Shown in pieces: positions 55,168 through 62,815 of a stretch of DNA of 64,000 bases (the stretch's first letter is position 1; every line of letters starts with the position of its first letter). The notes below the pieces were generated by a model. It did no database searches, had not been told where the DNA came from, and saw only the letters and a list, made by a program, of their open reading frames with translations. The DNA comes from Amycolatopsis endophytica (lineage in GTDB: Bacteria > Actinomycetota > Actinomycetes > Mycobacteriales > Pseudonocardiaceae). The stretch spans positions 4,464,001 through 4,528,000 of the forward strand of contig NZ_JACCFK010000001.1 of NCBI RefSeq assembly GCF_013410405.1, written 5' to 3'. A program made the translations under genes and the position numbers.

Positions 55168-55605
55168 TCAGTCGGTGAGGCCGCCGAACGCGATCACCTT
55201 CGTGATCCGCGCCCGCACGAGCGCTTCACCGGGTACGGCGTTGCGCTTGCCGAACTCCTCGGCTCGGTCCCCGCCCATGTAGCGGGCGCCGAGCCGGCTC
55301 GACCAGTACCGCATCTCCTCCAGGTCCTCGAACAGGTTCGCCTCGGCGGTGAACTGGACGAACGAGAACGGCGGCTGCTGGTCGTCCACGCACAGCGACA
55401 GGCGCGGGTCACGCCGCAGCGCCCGCCCCTTGACCGTGTCCAGGCCCGTGGTGAAGACCAGCTCGTCGTCGCTGCCGTTCGCGTGCAGGAGGAACCAGAC
55501 GGGGGTGACGTGCGGGCTGCCGTCCGCGTGGGTGACGGCGAGCTTTCCGGTGCGGGTGCCCGCCGAGGCGAACCGCCACCAGTCGTCCCTGTTCAGTGCG
55601 TGCAT
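55168..55605 (-). CDS. PPOX-class (F420- or flavin-dependent) oxidoreductase
   Basis: A 145-residue split-barrel protein of the pyridoxamine-phosphate-oxidase family: GKLAVTHADGSPHVTPVWF, LDTVKGRALRRDPRLSLCVDD and FVQFTAEANLFED. Actinobacterial members of this size often use F420, but the sequence cannot decide the cofactor here. The ATG at 55605 has TACTGT six bases upstream, so it may be leaderless. It is divergent from a MarR gene across 34 bp. Confidence 0.8.
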   Translation of the reverse strand: MHALNRDDWWRFASAGTRTGKLAVTHADGSPHVTPVWFLLHANGSDDELVFTTGLDTVKGRALRRDPRLSLCVDDQQPPFSFVQFTAEANLFEDLEEMRYWSSRLGARYMGGDRAEEFGKRNAVPGEALVRARITKVIAFGGLTD

Positions 55606-55611
55606 GGCGCG

Positions 55612-55617
55612 ACAGTA
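55612..55617 (-). promoter_or_regulatory. -10 box of the PPOX gene, leaderless
   Basis: Minus-strand TACTGT ends 6 nt before the ATG at 55605, in the 34-bp gap shared with the MarR gene. Confidence 0.45.
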
Positions 55618-55639
55618 GCGCCGTGCGATCATCGGCTGC

Positions 55640-56023
55640 ATGTCGAGCGAGGAACCGACCGCGTCGCTGAGCGGGTTCTCCCTCGCGTCGCGGCACCTGT
55701 CGCTGCCGTCCTGCCTGCTCTCGGACGGGCCGATGACGGTCAACGAGCTGGCCGCCCGGCTGGAGGTCGCGCCCACCACCGTCAGCCTGATGGTCGGCGG
55801 CCTGTCCCGCCGCGGCATCCTCGACCGCGGCGAGGACGAGAACGACCGGGGCCGCACCATCGTCAGCATCGCCGGGACCTACCGCGCGGACGTGGAGAGC
55901 CGGCTCACCGCCGGTGCCCGAGCCCGGCGCACCGCGCTCGACCCCCTCACCGCCGACCAGCGGCGGATGTTCATCGACACGCTGCTCACCTACGAGCGCG
56001 AAGTCGAGCGGGAGCGAGGGTAA
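55640..56023 (+). CDS. Short MarR-family regulator
   Basis: A 127-residue winged-helix protein: DGPMTVNELAARLEVAPTTVSLMVGGLSRRGILDR, then the wing with DENDRGRTIVSI (family landmarks). The N-terminal dimerisation helix is shorter than in typical MarR proteins of about 145 residues; no alternative upstream start is in frame. It probably controls the divergent PPOX gene and itself. The 34-bp shared gap is too small for two independent control regions. Confidence 0.75.
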   Translation: MSSEEPTASLSGFSLASRHLSLPSCLLSDGPMTVNELAARLEVAPTTVSLMVGGLSRRGILDRGEDENDRGRTIVSIAGTYRADVESRLTAGARARRTALDPLTADQRRMFIDTLLTYEREVERERG

Positions 56024-56081: not shown

Positions 56082-56087
56082 TAATCT
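56082..56087 (+). promoter_or_regulatory. -10 box of the SMC operon, leaderless
   Basis: TAATCT lies 8 nt before the GTG at 56096, with no ribosome site between. It is the only promoter-like signal for the three-gene operon. Confidence 0.5.
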
Positions 56088-56095
56088 GAACCGCT

Positions 56096-57565
56096 GTGCG
56101 TGACTCGGACCTGATCAGCGGCGGGCTGGTGGATGAGGGCCTGGCCCGGCGGCTCAAGGCGCTCGCCTGCACCGCGCCCCTGCACGACCTCGACGCGCGC
56201 AAGGCGAAGCTGGACTGGGCCGACGCGACGGTTTACCAGATGGCCGAGATCGCGCTGCACACGATCGACCTGGTCACCATCGCGATGGACTTCGACACCG
56301 GCGCCGACCACGAGGACGTCGTGCGCCGCCTGCAGCCGTTCATCGCCGCGCAGGCCCCGCGCCGCCCCGCCGACGAGCACCTGCGGGTGGCGCGCTGGGT
56401 GCTGGACAACCTGATCAACGTCGGGACCACCGACCGCGGTTTCCGCCGGGTCTACGGCAGCGTCGACGCCGGGGGCACCTACCGGCGCCGCGCGTTCGAC
56501 TTCAAGCTCCTCGTCGAGCTGTCCGCGCCGGACGGCGAGGTGTACCTGCGTGCCAGCGACGAGGCGATCAACGTGCTGGTCGGCGCGCTGGACACCGACG
56601 TCGAGTCGGCCCAGATCGCGGCCGAGGTCAAGCTGGAGAACCTGATCAGCCGCGGCCGCCTCGCCGACGCCAAGCTGGCCGCCGAACAGGCCCGCTACCG
56701 CACCGTCCAGTACGGCGAGACGCTGCGCGCCAAGCTCGACGCGACCCGCCGCGACGTGCGTGCCGTGGACTGGGACCGGGAGATGCCGGAGCTGCTGGAC
56801 TCCGCGCTGACCCACATCGAGGCCCGGTTCCGCGCCGAGAACGCCATCCTGCGCAATATCACCGCCGCGCGTGACGAGGCCGAGGACGTCGACCACAAGC
56901 GCCGCGCCGCCGAGCTGGTCGACATCGTGGGCGACTGCATCAGCCGCCACACCCAGCTGCAGGCGCGGCTGCAGGCCGCGGGCGCCGTCTTCCGCGCCGA
57001 GCAGGACCGGCAGCAGTTCTCCGGGCCGCCGCAGCGGGCCACCGTCGACCTGTTCGGCCAGATTCTGGTGCCCGCCCTGGAGCTGCCGATCGCCGACGCG
57101 GTGTCGCCCCTGGAGTCCTACTTCCACGCCTCGGCCGGGCTGGTCGTGCCGACCGTGCCCGCGCTGCCGTCGCTGGTCTCGCTGCTGCTGCGGCCCTCGC
57201 CGGAGCGCGACAAGGTGGTCGGCGAGGTGCCGGAGCCGGAGCTCGTCCCGCCGGAGAGCCTCGACCACTACAGTGACGAGCAGTGGCGGCGGGCCGACGA
57301 GCTGCTGGACCTGCCGGAGGTGCCGCGGCGGCTGTCCGGCCTGCTGGCCGAGGCCCGCGAGCTGGACCCGGTGCTGCCCCGTCTGGTGGCACTGCGGGCG
57401 CTGCACTCCTACAGTCCCGGGGTGGGCGCGGCCCTCCGGCAGGGGGACGATCGCGCGCTGCTCGCCGTCGACGACGGCACGCTGCTGGAGGACGACGAGT
57501 TCGGCGGCGCCGACCTGCTGCTGAGCAGTGCGGCACTGGAGAGGGAAGAGGAGGGGGCGGCATGA
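56096..57565 (+). CDS. SMC-system subunit A, kleisin-like (MksF/JetA position)
   Basis: A 489-residue, mostly helical protein with no domain I can name with certainty. In order: an N-terminal helical part, a segment around residues 145-180 (RAFDFKLLVELSAPDGEVYLR), a long charged coiled-coil-prone stretch (about 195-320), and an acidic C-terminus. Size, order and coupling to a small winged-helix gene and an SMC-type ATPase match subunit F/A of Mks/Jet systems, which carries the kleisin role. It shows none of the landmarks I remember for DUF3375 or DUF2397. The GTG start is probably leaderless; the stop overlaps the next ATG. Confidence 0.6.
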   Translation: MRDSDLISGGLVDEGLARRLKALACTAPLHDLDARKAKLDWADATVYQMAEIALHTIDLVTIAMDFDTGADHEDVVRRLQPFIAAQAPRRPADEHLRVARWVLDNLINVGTTDRGFRRVYGSVDAGGTYRRRAFDFKLLVELSAPDGEVYLRASDEAINVLVGALDTDVESAQIAAEVKLENLISRGRLADAKLAAEQARYRTVQYGETLRAKLDATRRDVRAVDWDREMPELLDSALTHIEARFRAENAILRNITAARDEAEDVDHKRRAAELVDIVGDCISRHTQLQARLQAAGAVFRAEQDRQQFSGPPQRATVDLFGQILVPALELPIADAVSPLESYFHASAGLVVPTVPALPSLVSLLLRPSPERDKVVGEVPEPELVPPESLDHYSDEQWRRADELLDLPEVPRRLSGLLAEARELDPVLPRLVALRALHSYSPGVGAALRQGDDRALLAVDDGTLLEDDEFGGADLLLSSAALEREEEGAA

Positions 57566-58362
57566 CGCGTCCGGTGACCACCGGCGACGCCGAGAACGCT
57601 GCGCGGCTGATCTCGTTCGGCATGCGGCCCAAGCACCTGCCCTCGCGCGACGTCGTCTACGCCGACCTGGTGCGCCGCTACGGCGAGGACAGCGTGTTCA
57701 AGCAGCTGACCAACTCGGTGGCCGCGGGGCTCGGCCTGATGGTGCTCGACGTGAGCCACCAGGCGGGCGCGGTGCTGGCCGCCACCGACGAGTCGGTGTT
57801 CGAGGTCAAGATGGACAGCTACGCGCGCCAGAGCAAGATCCGCGAGCGCCGCGACACCGAGAAGGTGCTGCACGGCCTCGTGCACCTGGCCACCGCGGCG
57901 CTGGGCTATCCGCGTCCGGACGATCTGGCCAACGACACCTACATCGGCCGGGTGAGCGTCGACCAGGTCGACGGGGTGGTGCGGGAGGCGTGCCGCATCC
58001 TCGACGAGCGCGCCGCCAAGGCGGAGGCCAACAACGATCCGCTGTCGGACTCGCCGGAGCTGGAACAGGCATGGCGCGCCTACGCCCGCCGTCCCGAGGC
58101 CGCGGCCACCAAGGACGGCAGGCTGGCCTCCGACACGACGCGCGGGATGGTGTCGCGTGCCCTGCGGTTCCTGTCCGACCAGGGGTTCCTGGTCCAGGTC
58201 AGCGGCGAGCAGGGCGGCACCTACCGCACCACGCCGCGCTATCAGGTGCAGGTGCGGGAGCTGGCCGCGGACAGCGCGTTCGAGGAACTGCTGGAGCTCG
58301 GTGTGGTCGCGGTCGGTGACGGCGGCGGCACGCTGCGGCCGTCCATTTCGGACACTCTGTAG
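57562..58362 (+). CDS. SMC-system subunit B, winged-helix (MksE/JetB position)
   Basis: A 266-residue protein. Residues about 10-60 are helical (LPSRDVVYADLVRRYGEDSVFKQL). The C-terminal part (about 180-245) reads as a winged helix: DTTRGMVSRALRFLSDQGFLVQV, then GGTYRTTPRYQVQVREL. MksE/JetB proteins are small tandem winged-helix dimers that bind the kleisin; position, size and this fold fit. The ATG overlaps the previous stop, and 10 bp with GGGGGAG lead to the ATPase gene. The specific family is not recognised. Confidence 0.6.
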   Translation: MTRPVTTGDAENAARLISFGMRPKHLPSRDVVYADLVRRYGEDSVFKQLTNSVAAGLGLMVLDVSHQAGAVLAATDESVFEVKMDSYARQSKIRERRDTEKVLHGLVHLATAALGYPRPDDLANDTYIGRVSVDQVDGVVREACRILDERAAKAEANNDPLSDSPELEQAWRAYARRPEAAATKDGRLASDTTRGMVSRALRFLSDQGFLVQVSGEQGGTYRTTPRYQVQVRELAADSAFEELLELGVVAVGDGGGTLRPSISDTL

Positions 58363-58372
58363 GGGGAGACTG

Positions 58373-61300
58373 GTGTACGAGCTGTCCCGGGTGCGGCTGC
58401 ACTCGGTCGGACCGGCCGGTGCCCGGTACCAGAACGTGGTGCTGGACTTCAGCGGCGTCGGCCCGCTGGTCAAGGCGCCGGCGCAGGACGCGTTGTTCAC
58501 CGCGGGCATCCACTCCGCCGACGGGAGCCTGCCGCGGCGGCCGTCGCCGGCGAGCGTGCTGTTCCTGGAGAACGGCGGCGGCAAGTCGGTGCTGATCAAG
58601 CTGATCTTCTCGGTCATGCTGCCCGGGCGCCGCCAGGTGGTCGGCACGACGAGTACGCGGGTGCTGGAGAAGTTCGTCACCGCCAAGGACGTCGCGCACG
58701 TCGTGCTGGAGTGGCAGCACACCGAGACCGGGCAGCGCGTGATCACCGGCAAGGTGTCGGAGTGGCGCGGGCACGTGGTGTCGGGCGATCCGGCGAACCT
58801 GGTCGACTCGTGGTACTGCTTCCGGCCGACCGCGTCGCTGGGCCTGGAGTCGCTGCCGTTCACCGACGAGGGTCGCCTGCTCACGATGTCCGGTTTCGCG
58901 GAGAAGCTGGAGCAGGCACACAAGGCGGAGCCGGAACTGGAGCTGTCCACCACGCGCCGTCACCACGAGTGGACCGAGCGGCTGGACGCCCTCGGCCTGG
59001 ACACCGAGTTGTTCCGCTACCAGCGCGCGATGAACGCCGGGGAGGGCGAGGCGGCCGACGCGTTCGCGTTCACCTCCGACGAGGCGTTCGTCGAGTTCCT
59101 GTTGCGCGCGGTGATCCCCGAGGACGATCCGCGCGATCTGGCCGAAGTCGTGCAGACCTACGCGCACAACCTCGGGCAGCGCGGCGAACTGATGAGCGAA
59201 CGCGATTTCGTCGCGGGCGCGCTGGACCTGCTCGCCCCGCTCAGCGAGGAGGAATCGCTCGCTGCCGCGTCCCGCAAGCTCGCCGGCGTCGCCCGCGAGG
59301 AGGCCCGTGCGCTGGCCGCGTCCGTCATGGCGCGGCACGAGCTGGAGGCCGAGCGGCTGGACGGCCTCAAGTCCTATGTGGACGAAACGCGGGACGCGGA
59401 GAAGCTGGCGGAAGGTGACCACCGGCGCCTGCACGCGGTGGTGACCGAACTGCGCCGCGTGGTGGGGGAGCTGCGGCTGGCCGACGCGACGGCGGAGAAG
59501 AAGCGTCTCGACGACGAGCTGAAACGGGCGCGCGAGGCCGCCGCCGCGTGGCGCGAAACCGGCACGGTGCTCGCGCACGTCAACGCCGCGCAGAAGGCGA
59601 CCGGCATCCGCGAGCTCGTCGGCGACCGCGAGCAGAGCGCGAAACCGGCCCTGGAGGCCAAGAACGCGGCGGCCGTCGCGCTGGCCCGCGGTCTGCTGGC
59701 ACTGGCCCGCGAGGCCGAGGAGCAGGCTGCCGCTGCCGAGTCCCGCGCGAACACGGCGCGATCGGCGGCCGCGCGGGCGCAGGATCAGCGGGACGAGGCG
59801 ACCGCCACCGCGGCCGGGCACCGGGCCGAGCTGGGACAGCTGACGCGCCGCATCGAGGAGGTCCGCGCGCAGGTGCAGCAGTCCGTCCGTGACGGGCTGC
59901 TCAGCGACGGTACTCAGGTCGCCGCCGCCGCGCAGGAAGCCCGCAGCCGCGGGGAAAACGCGGTCACCGAGCTGGGCGCGCGGGAGAGCGAACTCGAAGG
60001 TGTCGCCGAGGACCACGCGCAGGCGCAGTCCGCCCTGTATGCGGCGCAACAGCGCGCGGCGACAGCGCGTTCGGCGTCCGAGCACGCGGCCGAGGAACTG
60101 GCGAAGGCGCACCGCCGGTCGGACAGCCTGGCCGCGCACCCCCGCCTGCTGGAACTGCTCGGTGGCGACTCGGTGCAGCTGGAAACCGACACGCCGGCGT
60201 TGCTCACCCGCCTGCGTGAGGCTCGCGCCACCGCCGAGCGTGAGCAGACCGCGCTGCGCATGGAGGAGTCGGTCGACGAACGGGCGCTGGCCGCGCTCGG
60301 CAGCGGGGGACTGCTGCCCGCGCCGCCGGAAGTCCAGTCCGCTTTGGACGTTCTGGAAGCGGCCGGGATCACGGCGCGCTCGGGCTGGCGTTATCTGTCC
60401 ACCATGGACGTCACGGGTCGCGAGCGGGTGCTGCGCGATCTGCCGCACCTGCTCGGCGGGGTGCTGATCAACGACCCGGCGCAGCTGGACCGGGCGAAGC
60501 AGGCGCTCGCCGGTGCGAAGCTGTTGCCGAGCGTGGTCCTGCCGGTCGCCACCACCGGGGCGGTGCGGGCCGAGGGCTCCGCGCCCGGCGTGGACTTCCT
60601 GGTCACGCCCAATCCGGCGATGTACGACGAGGACGCGGCGGACACCGAACGGCAGGCCATCGCCACCCGGCACGCGCGGCGTCAGAAGCAGCTCGAAGCG
60701 CTCGCCGGGGCGATCAACGACGACGCGGCGCTGGAGTGGAAGCTCACGACGTGGCGTGAGGACTACCCGGCCGGGGCGCTCGCGACGCTCGCGGAAGAGG
60801 CCGAGGCGGCGGCCACCGAACAGACCGAGGCCGAGGCCGCGGCGGCCGCGCAGGAACGGGCGGTGGCGGATCTGGCCGCGCGGCGGGCACGGCTGCGCGA
60901 GGTGATTCCCGCGCTGCGGGCCGAAGCCCGGTCCGGTGAGGAGCGGTCCCGCAAGCTCGCGGAACTGGCCGAGCGGGTCGCGATGATTCCGCAGTGGACG
61001 GAGACGGCGGAGCGCGCGCAGGAGGTCGTCACCCGCGCCGAGGCCGAGACCGAGCAGGCCGCGTCCCGCGCCGCCCGGCTGCGGGAAGAGGCGGCCGAGG
61101 AACAACGCACGGCCGACGGCCACCGCCGCACGGTGACCCACGCCCGCGCCGAGCTGGCCGAGGTGCCCGGCGGCGGTTCGGTGTCCGAGGACGAGCCGGT
61201 GCCCGCCGAACCGGTGGACGCGCTGCGCCGTACGTTCGCCGCGGCCAGCGACGCCTACGCACGCGTCGAGGTCGGCAGCGATCTGCGGGCCGAACTGGAC

Positions 61301-62815
61301 CAGGCCGAAAACGCGGAGTCCGCGGCGCGGGCGGCGCTGGAAGCGCTGGACCCGGCGGTGCGGGAGCAGGCGGCGCGGCTGCTGGAAACGCCGGACGGCT
61401 CCGACGCCGCCACGCGTGCCGCGGCGCTGGCCCGCGCGGGGCGGACGGTGTCGGCGCTGGAGGCCGAGCACAGCGAGGCGATCGGGCTGGTCGCGACGTG
61501 CAAGGCCGAGCTGGACCAGTTGCCGAAGCAGAACGCGTCGCTGGACACCCGGCCGCGCGACGTCGAGCACGGCCGCGAGCTGATCGACGAAGCCGCGGAG
61601 GAGGTTTCGGCGGCGGCGCGGGCGCTGGAGGAGGCCCAGGCTCGCCGGGCGGAGGCCGAGCGCACCCTGGAGTCCGCCACGGCTTCGGCCGCGGGGTTCA
61701 AGATGCTCGCCGAGTCGCTGGCGCACCTGGCTCCCGAGGGTGAGCCGGACAGCGTGTTCGACGGCGACGTGGACGCCGCGCAGGCGCGCTACCGCAAGCT
61801 GAACACGACGCTGACCGACGCCGAGGCCGCGGTCGACTCCGCGGAGAAGCGGGTGCGCGCCGCGGCCGACACGCTCGCCCAGTACGCCACGGACAAGCGG
61901 TTCGAGAAACTGACCAGCCCGGTGCGGCAGCAGATCGTGTCGGTGCGCCGCGACAGCCTGCCCGCGCACGCCCGGGAGTGGACCACGGCGCTGAAGCCGC
62001 GGTTGCGCACGCTCACGGACGATCTGGCGCAGATCGACCGGCACCGGTCCGGGATCGTGGCGCGGTTGCAGGGCATGGTCGAAGGCGCTTTGCGGATGCT
62101 GCGGTCGGCGCAGCGGCTGTCGCGCCTGCCGGAGGGGCTGGGCGGCTGGTCGGGGCAGGAGTTCCTGCGGATCCGGTTCGGCGATCCGGAGGAGCCGAAG
62201 CTGTCCGAGGCGCTCGGGCAGGTCGTGGACGAGGCGGCGATCGGCAAGACCAGCGACGGCCGCGACGTGAAGCGGGACGGGATGTCGCTGGTGCTGCGCG
62301 GGGTGCGGGCGTCGGTGCCCAAGGGGTTCCGGGTGGACATGCTCAAACCGGATTCGGTGCTGCGCACGGAGCGGCAGCGGGTGTCCGAGATCCGCGACGT
62401 GTTCTCCGGCGGGCAGCAGCTGACGGCGGCGATCATCCTGTACTGCACGCTGGCGGCACTGCGCGCGAACAACCGCGGCCTGGTCCGCAACCGGCACTCC
62501 GGGGTGCTGTTCCTGGACAACCCGATCGGCCGCGCGTCGGCCGGGTACCTGCTGGAGTTGCAGCGGGTGGTCGCCGAGGCGCTGGGAGTGCAGCTGATCT
62601 ACACGACGGGCCTGTTCGACGCCGGAGCACTGTCGGAGTTCCCCCTGATCGTGCGCCTGCGCAACGACGCGGACCTGCGCGCGGGCCGCAAATACCTGTC
62701 CGTCGACGCGACGATCCGCAACCACCTCGACGCCCTCGACGAGCCCGACGGCACAGCCCGCATCTCGGCGACGCGGCTGTTCACGAAGCCAGGGGAGCAG
62801 ACGGCGGACACCTGA
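58373..62815 (+). CDS. SMC/MukB-like ATPase (MksB/JetC position)
   Basis: A 1480-residue SMC-architecture ATPase. Walker A is FLENGGGKS (Lys71, Ser72), with Leu at the usual first Gly. A long Ala/Glu-rich coiled coil (about 300-640), a globular hinge-like part (about 645-775) and a second coiled coil (about 785-1220) follow. The C-terminal head has the ABC signature FSGGQ (1344-1348) and Walker B VLFLDNP, with Asp1382 followed by Asn1383 where the catalytic Glu normally stands. It should form a DNA-embracing dimer with the two upstream products. GTG 58373 follows GGGGGAG. No JetD-type nuclease gene follows. Confidence 0.8.
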   Translation: MYELSRVRLHSVGPAGARYQNVVLDFSGVGPLVKAPAQDALFTAGIHSADGSLPRRPSPASVLFLENGGGKSVLIKLIFSVMLPGRRQVVGTTSTRVLEKFVTAKDVAHVVLEWQHTETGQRVITGKVSEWRGHVVSGDPANLVDSWYCFRPTASLGLESLPFTDEGRLLTMSGFAEKLEQAHKAEPELELSTTRRHHEWTERLDALGLDTELFRYQRAMNAGEGEAADAFAFTSDEAFVEFLLRAVIPEDDPRDLAEVVQTYAHNLGQRGELMSERDFVAGALDLLAPLSEEESLAAASRKLAGVAREEARALAASVMARHELEAERLDGLKSYVDETRDAEKLAEGDHRRLHAVVTELRRVVGELRLADATAEKKRLDDELKRAREAAAAWRETGTVLAHVNAAQKATGIRELVGDREQSAKPALEAKNAAAVALARGLLALAREAEEQAAAAESRANTARSAAARAQDQRDEATATAAGHRAELGQLTRRIEEVRAQVQQSVRDGLLSDGTQVAAAAQEARSRGENAVTELGARESELEGVAEDHAQAQSALYAAQQRAATARSASEHAAEELAKAHRRSDSLAAHPRLLELLGGDSVQLETDTPALLTRLREARATAEREQTALRMEESVDERALAALGSGGLLPAPPEVQSALDVLEAAGITARSGWRYLSTMDVTGRERVLRDLPHLLGGVLINDPAQLDRAKQALAGAKLLPSVVLPVATTGAVRAEGSAPGVDFLVTPNPAMYDEDAADTERQAIATRHARRQKQLEALAGAINDDAALEWKLTTWREDYPAGALATLAEEAEAAATEQTEAEAAAAAQERAVADLAARRARLREVIPALRAEARSGEERSRKLAELAERVAMIPQWTETAERAQEVVTRAEAETEQAASRAARLREEAAEEQRTADGHRRTVTHARAELAEVPGGGSVSEDEPVPAEPVDALRRTFAAASDAYARVEVGSDLRAELDQAENAESAARAALEALDPAVREQAARLLETPDGSDAATRAAALARAGRTVSALEAEHSEAIGLVATCKAELDQLPKQNASLDTRPRDVEHGRELIDEAAEEVSAAARALEEAQARRAEAERTLESATASAAGFKMLAESLAHLAPEGEPDSVFDGDVDAAQARYRKLNTTLTDAEAAVDSAEKRVRAAADTLAQYATDKRFEKLTSPVRQQIVSVRRDSLPAHAREWTTALKPRLRTLTDDLAQIDRHRSGIVARLQGMVEGALRMLRSAQRLSRLPEGLGGWSGQEFLRIRFGDPEEPKLSEALGQVVDEAAIGKTSDGRDVKRDGMSLVLRGVRASVPKGFRVDMLKPDSVLRTERQRVSEIRDVFSGGQQLTAAIILYCTLAALRANNRGLVRNRHSGVLFLDNPIGRASAGYLLELQRVVAEALGVQLIYTTGLFDAGALSEFPLIVRLRNDADLRAGRKYLSVDATIRNHLDALDEPDGTARISATRLFTKPGEQTADT

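Follow-up and report, generated by a model that had tools for sequence, protein, structure and literature searches.

Wadjet systems have been reported in 42% of Actinobacteria (PMC10482375; this and the other papers given here by PMC number are cited from part of their text). PADLOC makes a Wadjet call only where all of JetA, JetB, JetC, and JetD are present, and Muk-like cases are filed under "other" (PMC9252829). In Wadjet, finishing extrusion on a small circle has been proposed as the trigger for JetD (PMC10586767), and MksBEFG of Corynebacterium glutamicum, an actinobacterial Wadjet-family SMC system, has a nuclease, MksG, that is reported to act on plasmids (PMC10123090). MksBEF of Pseudomonas aeruginosa consists of SMC, kleisin, and KITE genes with no nuclease gene, and has a canonical Smc alongside. 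Here, we describe a three-gene operon in a 64,000-nucleotide stretch of the Amycolatopsis endophytica genome (contig NZ_JACCFK010000001.1, positions 4,464,001 to 4,528,000), referred to below as the window, which encodes JetA, JetB, and JetC of the type III Wadjet family, with no JetD. On balance, and with modest confidence, we read it from its gene content and conservation as a nuclease-free, MksBEF-like second SMC complex that would serve the host chromosome; it may be a machine for handling the chromosome that has so far been overlooked, and not one for defence.

The likeness to type III Wadjet lies in homologous JetA, JetB, and JetC encoded in the same order, and in two JetD-bearing near relatives found at the same chromosomal site; the difference is that JetD is absent here, and that the locus keeps its site and is found in nearly all genomes of the genera sampled. 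With MksBEF of P. aeruginosa, the operon shares the three kinds of subunit gene, the lack of a nuclease gene, and the canonical Smc alongside, but it is a type III Wadjet relative and belongs to an actinomycete. It differs from MksBEFG of C. glutamicum in lacking the nuclease and in the size of the ATPase (1480 amino acids for the window JetC versus 1111 for MksB). Smc of Smc-ScpAB has the same SMC architecture; it is, however, encoded by a separate gene, and JetC scores only 20.8 bits against the SMC_prok_B profile, far below the cut-off of 567. The original prediction for this DNA, made without database searches, described three tightly coupled genes of 489, 266, and 1480 codons, and both their coordinates and their spacing are borne out. 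The genes and the features read within or beside them are as follows:

56096..57565, + strand: jetA-like kleisin gene, 489 amino acids, matching PADLOC JetA3 (PDLC00567) with 696 bits
57562..58362, + strand: jetB-like KITE gene, 266 amino acids, with a 4-bp overlap with jetA; assigned by profile comparison to JetB
58373..62815, + strand: jetC-like SMC ATPase gene, 1480 amino acids, starting 10 bp after jetB
56082..56087, + strand: putative -10 element, TAATCT, separated by 8 nt from the GTG start codon of jetA
58574..58588, + strand: JetC Walker A, GGGKS, residues 68-72, by motif reading
60293..60652, + strand: JetC hinge region (residues 641-760), placed by a break in coiled-coil composition, boundaries approximate
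62402..62416, + strand: JetC ABC signature, FSGGQ, residues 1344-1348, by motif reading
62507..62524, + strand: JetC Walker B, LFLDNP, residues 1379-1384, with Asn after Asp

By sequence profile, the three genes are type III Wadjet-family JetA, JetB, and JetC. The third matches PADLOC JetC3 (PDLC00588) with 1924 bits over residues 1-1477, and Walker A, the mid-protein coiled-coil break, the signature, and Walker B follow one another in that order, all intact, which locates each element of the SMC architecture that had been predicted for it. The JetA3 match of the first gene is joined by an alignment to a JetA profile of 17 accessory type III loci (hhalign probability 100, E 4e-73). A profile of the second gene, built from 33 sequences, aligns to the JetB profile of 17 accessory type III loci (hhalign probability 100, E 1.3e-42). 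This second gene has no match in PADLOC (E up to 1), none in Pfam, and nothing near the cut-off in NCBIfam; nothing can be read from the PADLOC and Pfam results, since neither database (PADLOC at E up to 0.01) recognises the JetB of the genome's complete type III operon. The JetABC/MksFEB layout that had been proposed therefore holds, the two outer genes being matched by PADLOC and the middle one by profile comparison. The accompanying remarks that the small subunits match no Jet family, and that the system may be an unclassified branch, have to be given up: the JetA3 and JetC3 matches, together with the profile comparisons for the first two genes, rule out an unclassified SMC branch.

Structural comparison added less. 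The predicted structure of JetB is a winged-helix model with a mean predicted local distance difference test score (pLDDT) of 79.8; that of JetA is of low confidence (pLDDT 61), and its fold matches are generic helical bundles. When compared with solved PDB chains, the JetC profile found no match at E 0.001, and the JetA and JetB profiles each found one unrelated chain at E up to 10. Profile scores, genus-wide orthologues, and a low ratio of nonsynonymous to synonymous substitution rates (dN/dS) place the locus far beyond chance.

The absence of the nuclease was examined with a JetD profile that had been rebuilt with 36 sequences. Over 171 loci, in which frames of 60 amino acids or more from start to stop were searched, it gave either a score of at least 253 bits or nothing at E < 10. 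All 19 orthologous jetABC loci of the window's genus gave nothing at E < 10, and therefore no recognisable jetD remnant is left in them; the original prediction of a locus with no JetD nuclease was right, none being found in the locus or its fetched flanks. The genus was also searched genome-wide, with PDLC00594 in 16 of the 19 genomes and with PF09983 and PF09664 in all 19. No JetD was found anywhere by these three profiles in 11 of the 19 genomes, and for these 11, within the reach of the profiles, JetD acting in trans is ruled out as a general explanation.

The genome of the window (7.2 Mb) has two JetC3 loci, and only the second is accompanied by JetD. This second locus (L035:6429-14279, ~5.160-5.168 Mb) is a complete type III operon, jetA2-B2-C2-D2, in which jetD2 (L035:13203-14279) encodes a JetD scoring 273 bits to PDLC00594. 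It has a lower GC content at third codon positions and a 4-bp jetC/jetD overlap, and a gene for a KAP-family P-loop NTPase (PF07693, 157 bits) comes after it (L035:16358-18181). Elsewhere in the same genome (L036:7546-8397, ~2.7276 Mb) there is a stand-alone fragment that matches the JetD C-terminal domain (71.9 bits), perhaps the remnant of a type I Wadjet.

The window-type operon is found in 18 of 18 other genomes of the genus, in the same neighbourhood and with identities of 76-93% for JetC, 86-96% for JetA, and 87-98% for JetB. Every one of the 19 genomes of this genus has JetC3, as does every one of 80 from a second Amycolatopsis genus; in a genus that we take as Streptomyces, it is present in 147 of 150 genomes. 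JetD3 was the only JetD type searched in the last of these, types I and II lying outside that search; it exceeds 100 bits in 11 of the 150 genomes, and weak matches (about 32 bits or less) occur in 10 further ones. Eight of the 11 have JetD beside one JetC match and another JetC match elsewhere, and for the other three the JetC rows are not all listed. When the loci themselves are read, 33 of the 34 named Streptomyces loci with enough downstream DNA are without JetD; for the remaining Streptomyces, its absence rests on the genome profile search. In wider surveys, JetC3 was found in 81 of 249 genomes of the family and in 53 of 345 genomes drawn evenly from the class (one of the 53 with only 18 bits), and the same 345 genomes held JetD3 above 100 bits at 11 places in 10 genomes. 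JetD-less JetABC thus looks core in the Amycolatopsis and Streptomyces genomes sampled. The original prediction had named, as a finding that would count against it, single-copy core genes with an assigned and unrelated role; the genes do look core, and no role has been assigned to them: of 509 JetB homologues, the 120 listed carry the labels hypothetical or uncharacterized, in one case "membrane protein", or no name.

Among the named genomes in the best 80 of 564 relatives, Amycolatopsis comes first (A. tucumanensis, A. deserti, and A. thermalba, 93%), followed by Prauserella, Actinophytocola, Haloechinothrix, Tamaricihabitans, Pseudonocardia, and others, with many Streptomyces. JetA and JetC are identical between L038, of the window's genus, and A. 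tucumanensis, and between L059, of the second Amycolatopsis genus, and A. regifaucium. For locus-by-locus reading, 170 JetC loci were used, comprising 22 duplicates, 22 members of a distant accessory group, and 126 near relatives; these are best matches rather than a random draw, and the class and Streptomyces surveys are less biased. JetD is present in 16 and absent from 109 of 125 near loci (L178, with too little downstream DNA, was left out), and present in 19 of the 22 loci of the distant group. The three others of that group (L056, L118, and L119, probably Pseudonocardia) are without JetD and have close relatives with it. JetC as a plasmid gene was considered and ruled out, as nine plasmid records matched it and none did so over more than 80% of the query. 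One JetC relative does lie on a 77-kb Rhodococcus plasmid (NZ_CP070616.1, 70891-75462), with 44% identity over 56% of the query.

If the complex works as its relatives do, JetC dimers, contributing the ATPase and the coiled coil, would be linked by JetA as the kleisin and JetB as the KITE subunit. We infer that the assembly, as a dimer of JetABC units, would most likely load on DNA and extrude loops with ATP, as is proposed for Wadjet and MukBEF, and, because the Toprim nuclease is not attached, the DNA would be compacted or moved rather than cut. The substrate would be the chromosome, beside Smc-ScpAB, and JetABC would be a second complex there because a canonical Smc was present in 15 of 15 JetC carriers tested. 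In the portions of PMC8410768 and PMC13121528 cited here, Smc is the sole condensin named for Streptomyces, and one of the two reports that growth rate and differentiation are not significantly altered in smc single mutants of S. venezuelae. Among the results listed for the open-licence literature on JetD-less and type III Wadjet, and on Wadjet, MksBEF, or MukB-like condensins of Streptomyces, we found no published account of this complex. If the reading is true, a second SMC machine is present in well-known antibiotic producers, perhaps overlooked in chromosome-folding studies, and the extent of plasmid defence in actinomycetes could be overestimated where JetABC is counted as Wadjet. A wider claim, to which we give slightly less than an even chance, is that a second chromosomal SMC complex has gone unrecognised in Amycolatopsis, in Streptomyces, and in several further genera of actinomycetes. 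On this view, the complex is a type III Wadjet minus its nuclease, the cutter was acquired or lost on at least seven occasions, and the line separating SMC complexes that kill plasmids from those that organise chromosomes is open to observation at individual loci.

The operon is under purifying selection. In comparisons with six members of the genus, dN/dS is 0.13-0.24 for jetA, 0.06-0.13 for jetB, and 0.15-0.25 for jetC, and three other genes give 0.03-0.10 (whiA, five pairs), 0.24-0.27 (yvcK, three), and 0.20-0.26 (GPGS, four); the LysE rows of L053 and L058 were excluded for a misframed alignment, with pN > pS. Conservation was also followed through a set of columns conserved in 16 JetD-bearing near relatives (173 in JetA, 81 in JetB, and 273 in JetC). 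In Streptomyces, 43 of these 527 columns are changed, which may be plain divergence.

Several observations weigh against a chromosomal role. One JetD-bearing accessory pair gives similar dN/dS values (jetA2 0.12, jetB2 0.09, jetC2 0.18, and jetD2 0.20), so that constraint of this kind cannot separate housekeeping from defence. None of the conserved columns is lost in 71 JetD-less Amycolatopsis-type loci. This points to an intact motor, yet it leaves no visibly drifted JetD-binding surface, as simple domestication would lead one to look for; a surface used only to bind JetD should drift, unless it lies outside these columns or is used by another partner. Loss of JetD-contact columns was accordingly rejected for the Amycolatopsis-type clade, where none was seen. 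Most SMC ATPases have Asp-Glu at Walker B, with the Glu being catalytic, and the Asn that replaces it in JetC means that ATP hydrolysis is not to be assumed. Asp-Asn-Pro is found in the type III JetC rows aligned there, whether JetD-bearing or not (the frame-shifted L109 is the exception), so the Asn is common to JetD-bearing relatives too. In addition, two lineages of the clade that includes the window's operon, Tamaricihabitans and A. rifamycinica, have loci that carry JetD, and a gene for an AlkZ-like DNA glycosylase recurs downstream of jetABC.

The history of jetD bears on several of the alternatives. In a JetC tree of 88 rows, each of at least 1150 amino acids, 58 of the 59 rows in the clade of the window gene are without JetD. 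Well-supported branches force at least six changes of JetD state in a JetA tree of 105 rows and at least seven in a concatenated JetABC tree of 43 rows, and a single loss of JetD is incompatible with both; the trees have long branches and come from quick searches, and gain and loss are not distinguishable in them. JetD-bearing loci are nested in JetD-less clades, and the reverse. In Tamaricihabitans (L060 and L144), the interval between whiA and gap-pgk-tpi holds jetD as well as jetA, jetB, and jetC, and in A. rifamycinica (L156) a jetD segment of ~1.09 kb stands between flanks collinear with those of JetD-less A. vancoresmycina and A. pretoriensis (~92% and 81-85% identity). The A. rifamycinica jetD looks like a gain because it is nested among JetD-less sisters, and its product groups with JetD of Nocardiopsis, Frankia, and others (support 88); conversely, the mostly JetD-bearing distant group favours a JetD-first state. 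Such repeated changes, the inserted segment, and the nesting in both directions would all suit a platform that is armed and disarmed as jetD is gained and lost by recombination beside jetC, the JetD-less state being one phase with no new function. We consider this distinctly improbable, since the JetD-less state is found in every one of the 19 genus loci and in all but one of the Streptomyces loci read, and JetABC alone therefore seems worth keeping over long times. That the operon is the decaying remnant of a Wadjet is hardly credible: the missing subunit is all that speaks for it, and the low dN/dS, the intact JetC motifs, and the near-universal retention already contradict it. Under the chromosomal reading, natural pairs with and without JetD, such as A. 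rifamycinica and A. vancoresmycina, would offer a way to see how a nuclease machine turns into a chromosome organiser, or the reverse.

The complex may, on the other hand, still serve defence, with JetABC recognising small circular DNA that is then silenced by compaction, cut by a host nuclease, or cut by a JetD from elsewhere. The subunits do come from a defence family, the JetD-conserved columns are kept in Amycolatopsis-type loci, and a type III JetD is encoded elsewhere in some genomes, that of the window included. We nonetheless hold this to be unlikely, given the 11 genus genomes in which the three profiles found no JetD, the 139 of 150 Streptomyces without JetD3 above 100 bits, and a fixed locus and near-universal presence that are unlike those of a mobile defence gene. 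A partnership with the AlkZ-like glycosylase, in DNA repair or in defence with this protein as another effector, was weighed for the Amycolatopsis-type loci. These lie between whiA and gap-pgk-tpi in most cases (the site neighbours are seen in 71 of the 126 near loci, two of these 71 with JetD), and 54 of the 71 have the glycosylase gene (PF06224, 227 bits) further downstream in the same orientation; in the genome of the window it is at L033:18512-19678, just past the window end. It stands, however, at a median of ~2.1 kb from jetC and within 300 bp in only nine of the 54, a LysE gene comes between in 33, and no AlkZ-like gene was found in Streptomyces loci or in Tamaricihabitans, all of which makes a functional link very unlikely. 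The original prediction had offered either a condensin-like system or a defence variant with another effector, and had suggested looking for a recurrent fourth gene. The condensin-like option is the one favoured here; as for the effector, no fourth operon gene is common to the Amycolatopsis-type and Streptomyces clades, and the LysE gene (downstream on the opposite strand in 37 of the 126 near loci) and the AlkZ-like gene (in 54 of the 126) are recurrent but separate.

Upstream of the operon, all 19 genus loci, when placed by the start codon, have a TANNNT box at a distance of exactly 8 nt from the jetA GTG, and the sequence further upstream is variable. A sigma-70 scan gave no site. The box may mark a leaderless promoter for the operon; a leaderless transcript would fit because the spacing is fixed while the sequence beyond it varies.

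The Streptomyces loci have a neighbourhood of their own. Among the most frequent neighbours in the 33 examined, an opposite-strand frame, perhaps miscalled, lies upstream in 30 and a LamB/YcsF gene in 19; a NIT-domain sensor kinase is encoded downstream in 20 and a roadblock protein in 19, and a GntR-like frame, assigned to GntR by eye, occurs in 19. The kinase and roadblock set downstream of jetC resembles a conservon cluster. One Streptomyces genome has a second JetC of 1976 bits (G686:C1:8669269-8674873) that is close to the Amycolatopsis type and has JetD directly after it, perhaps through transfer between genera.

Just before the operon in the window, a MarR-family frame (29 bits, 55640-56023, + strand) overlaps a PNPOx-domain frame (61.5 bits, 55168-55869, - strand), and one of the two starts has probably been called too early.

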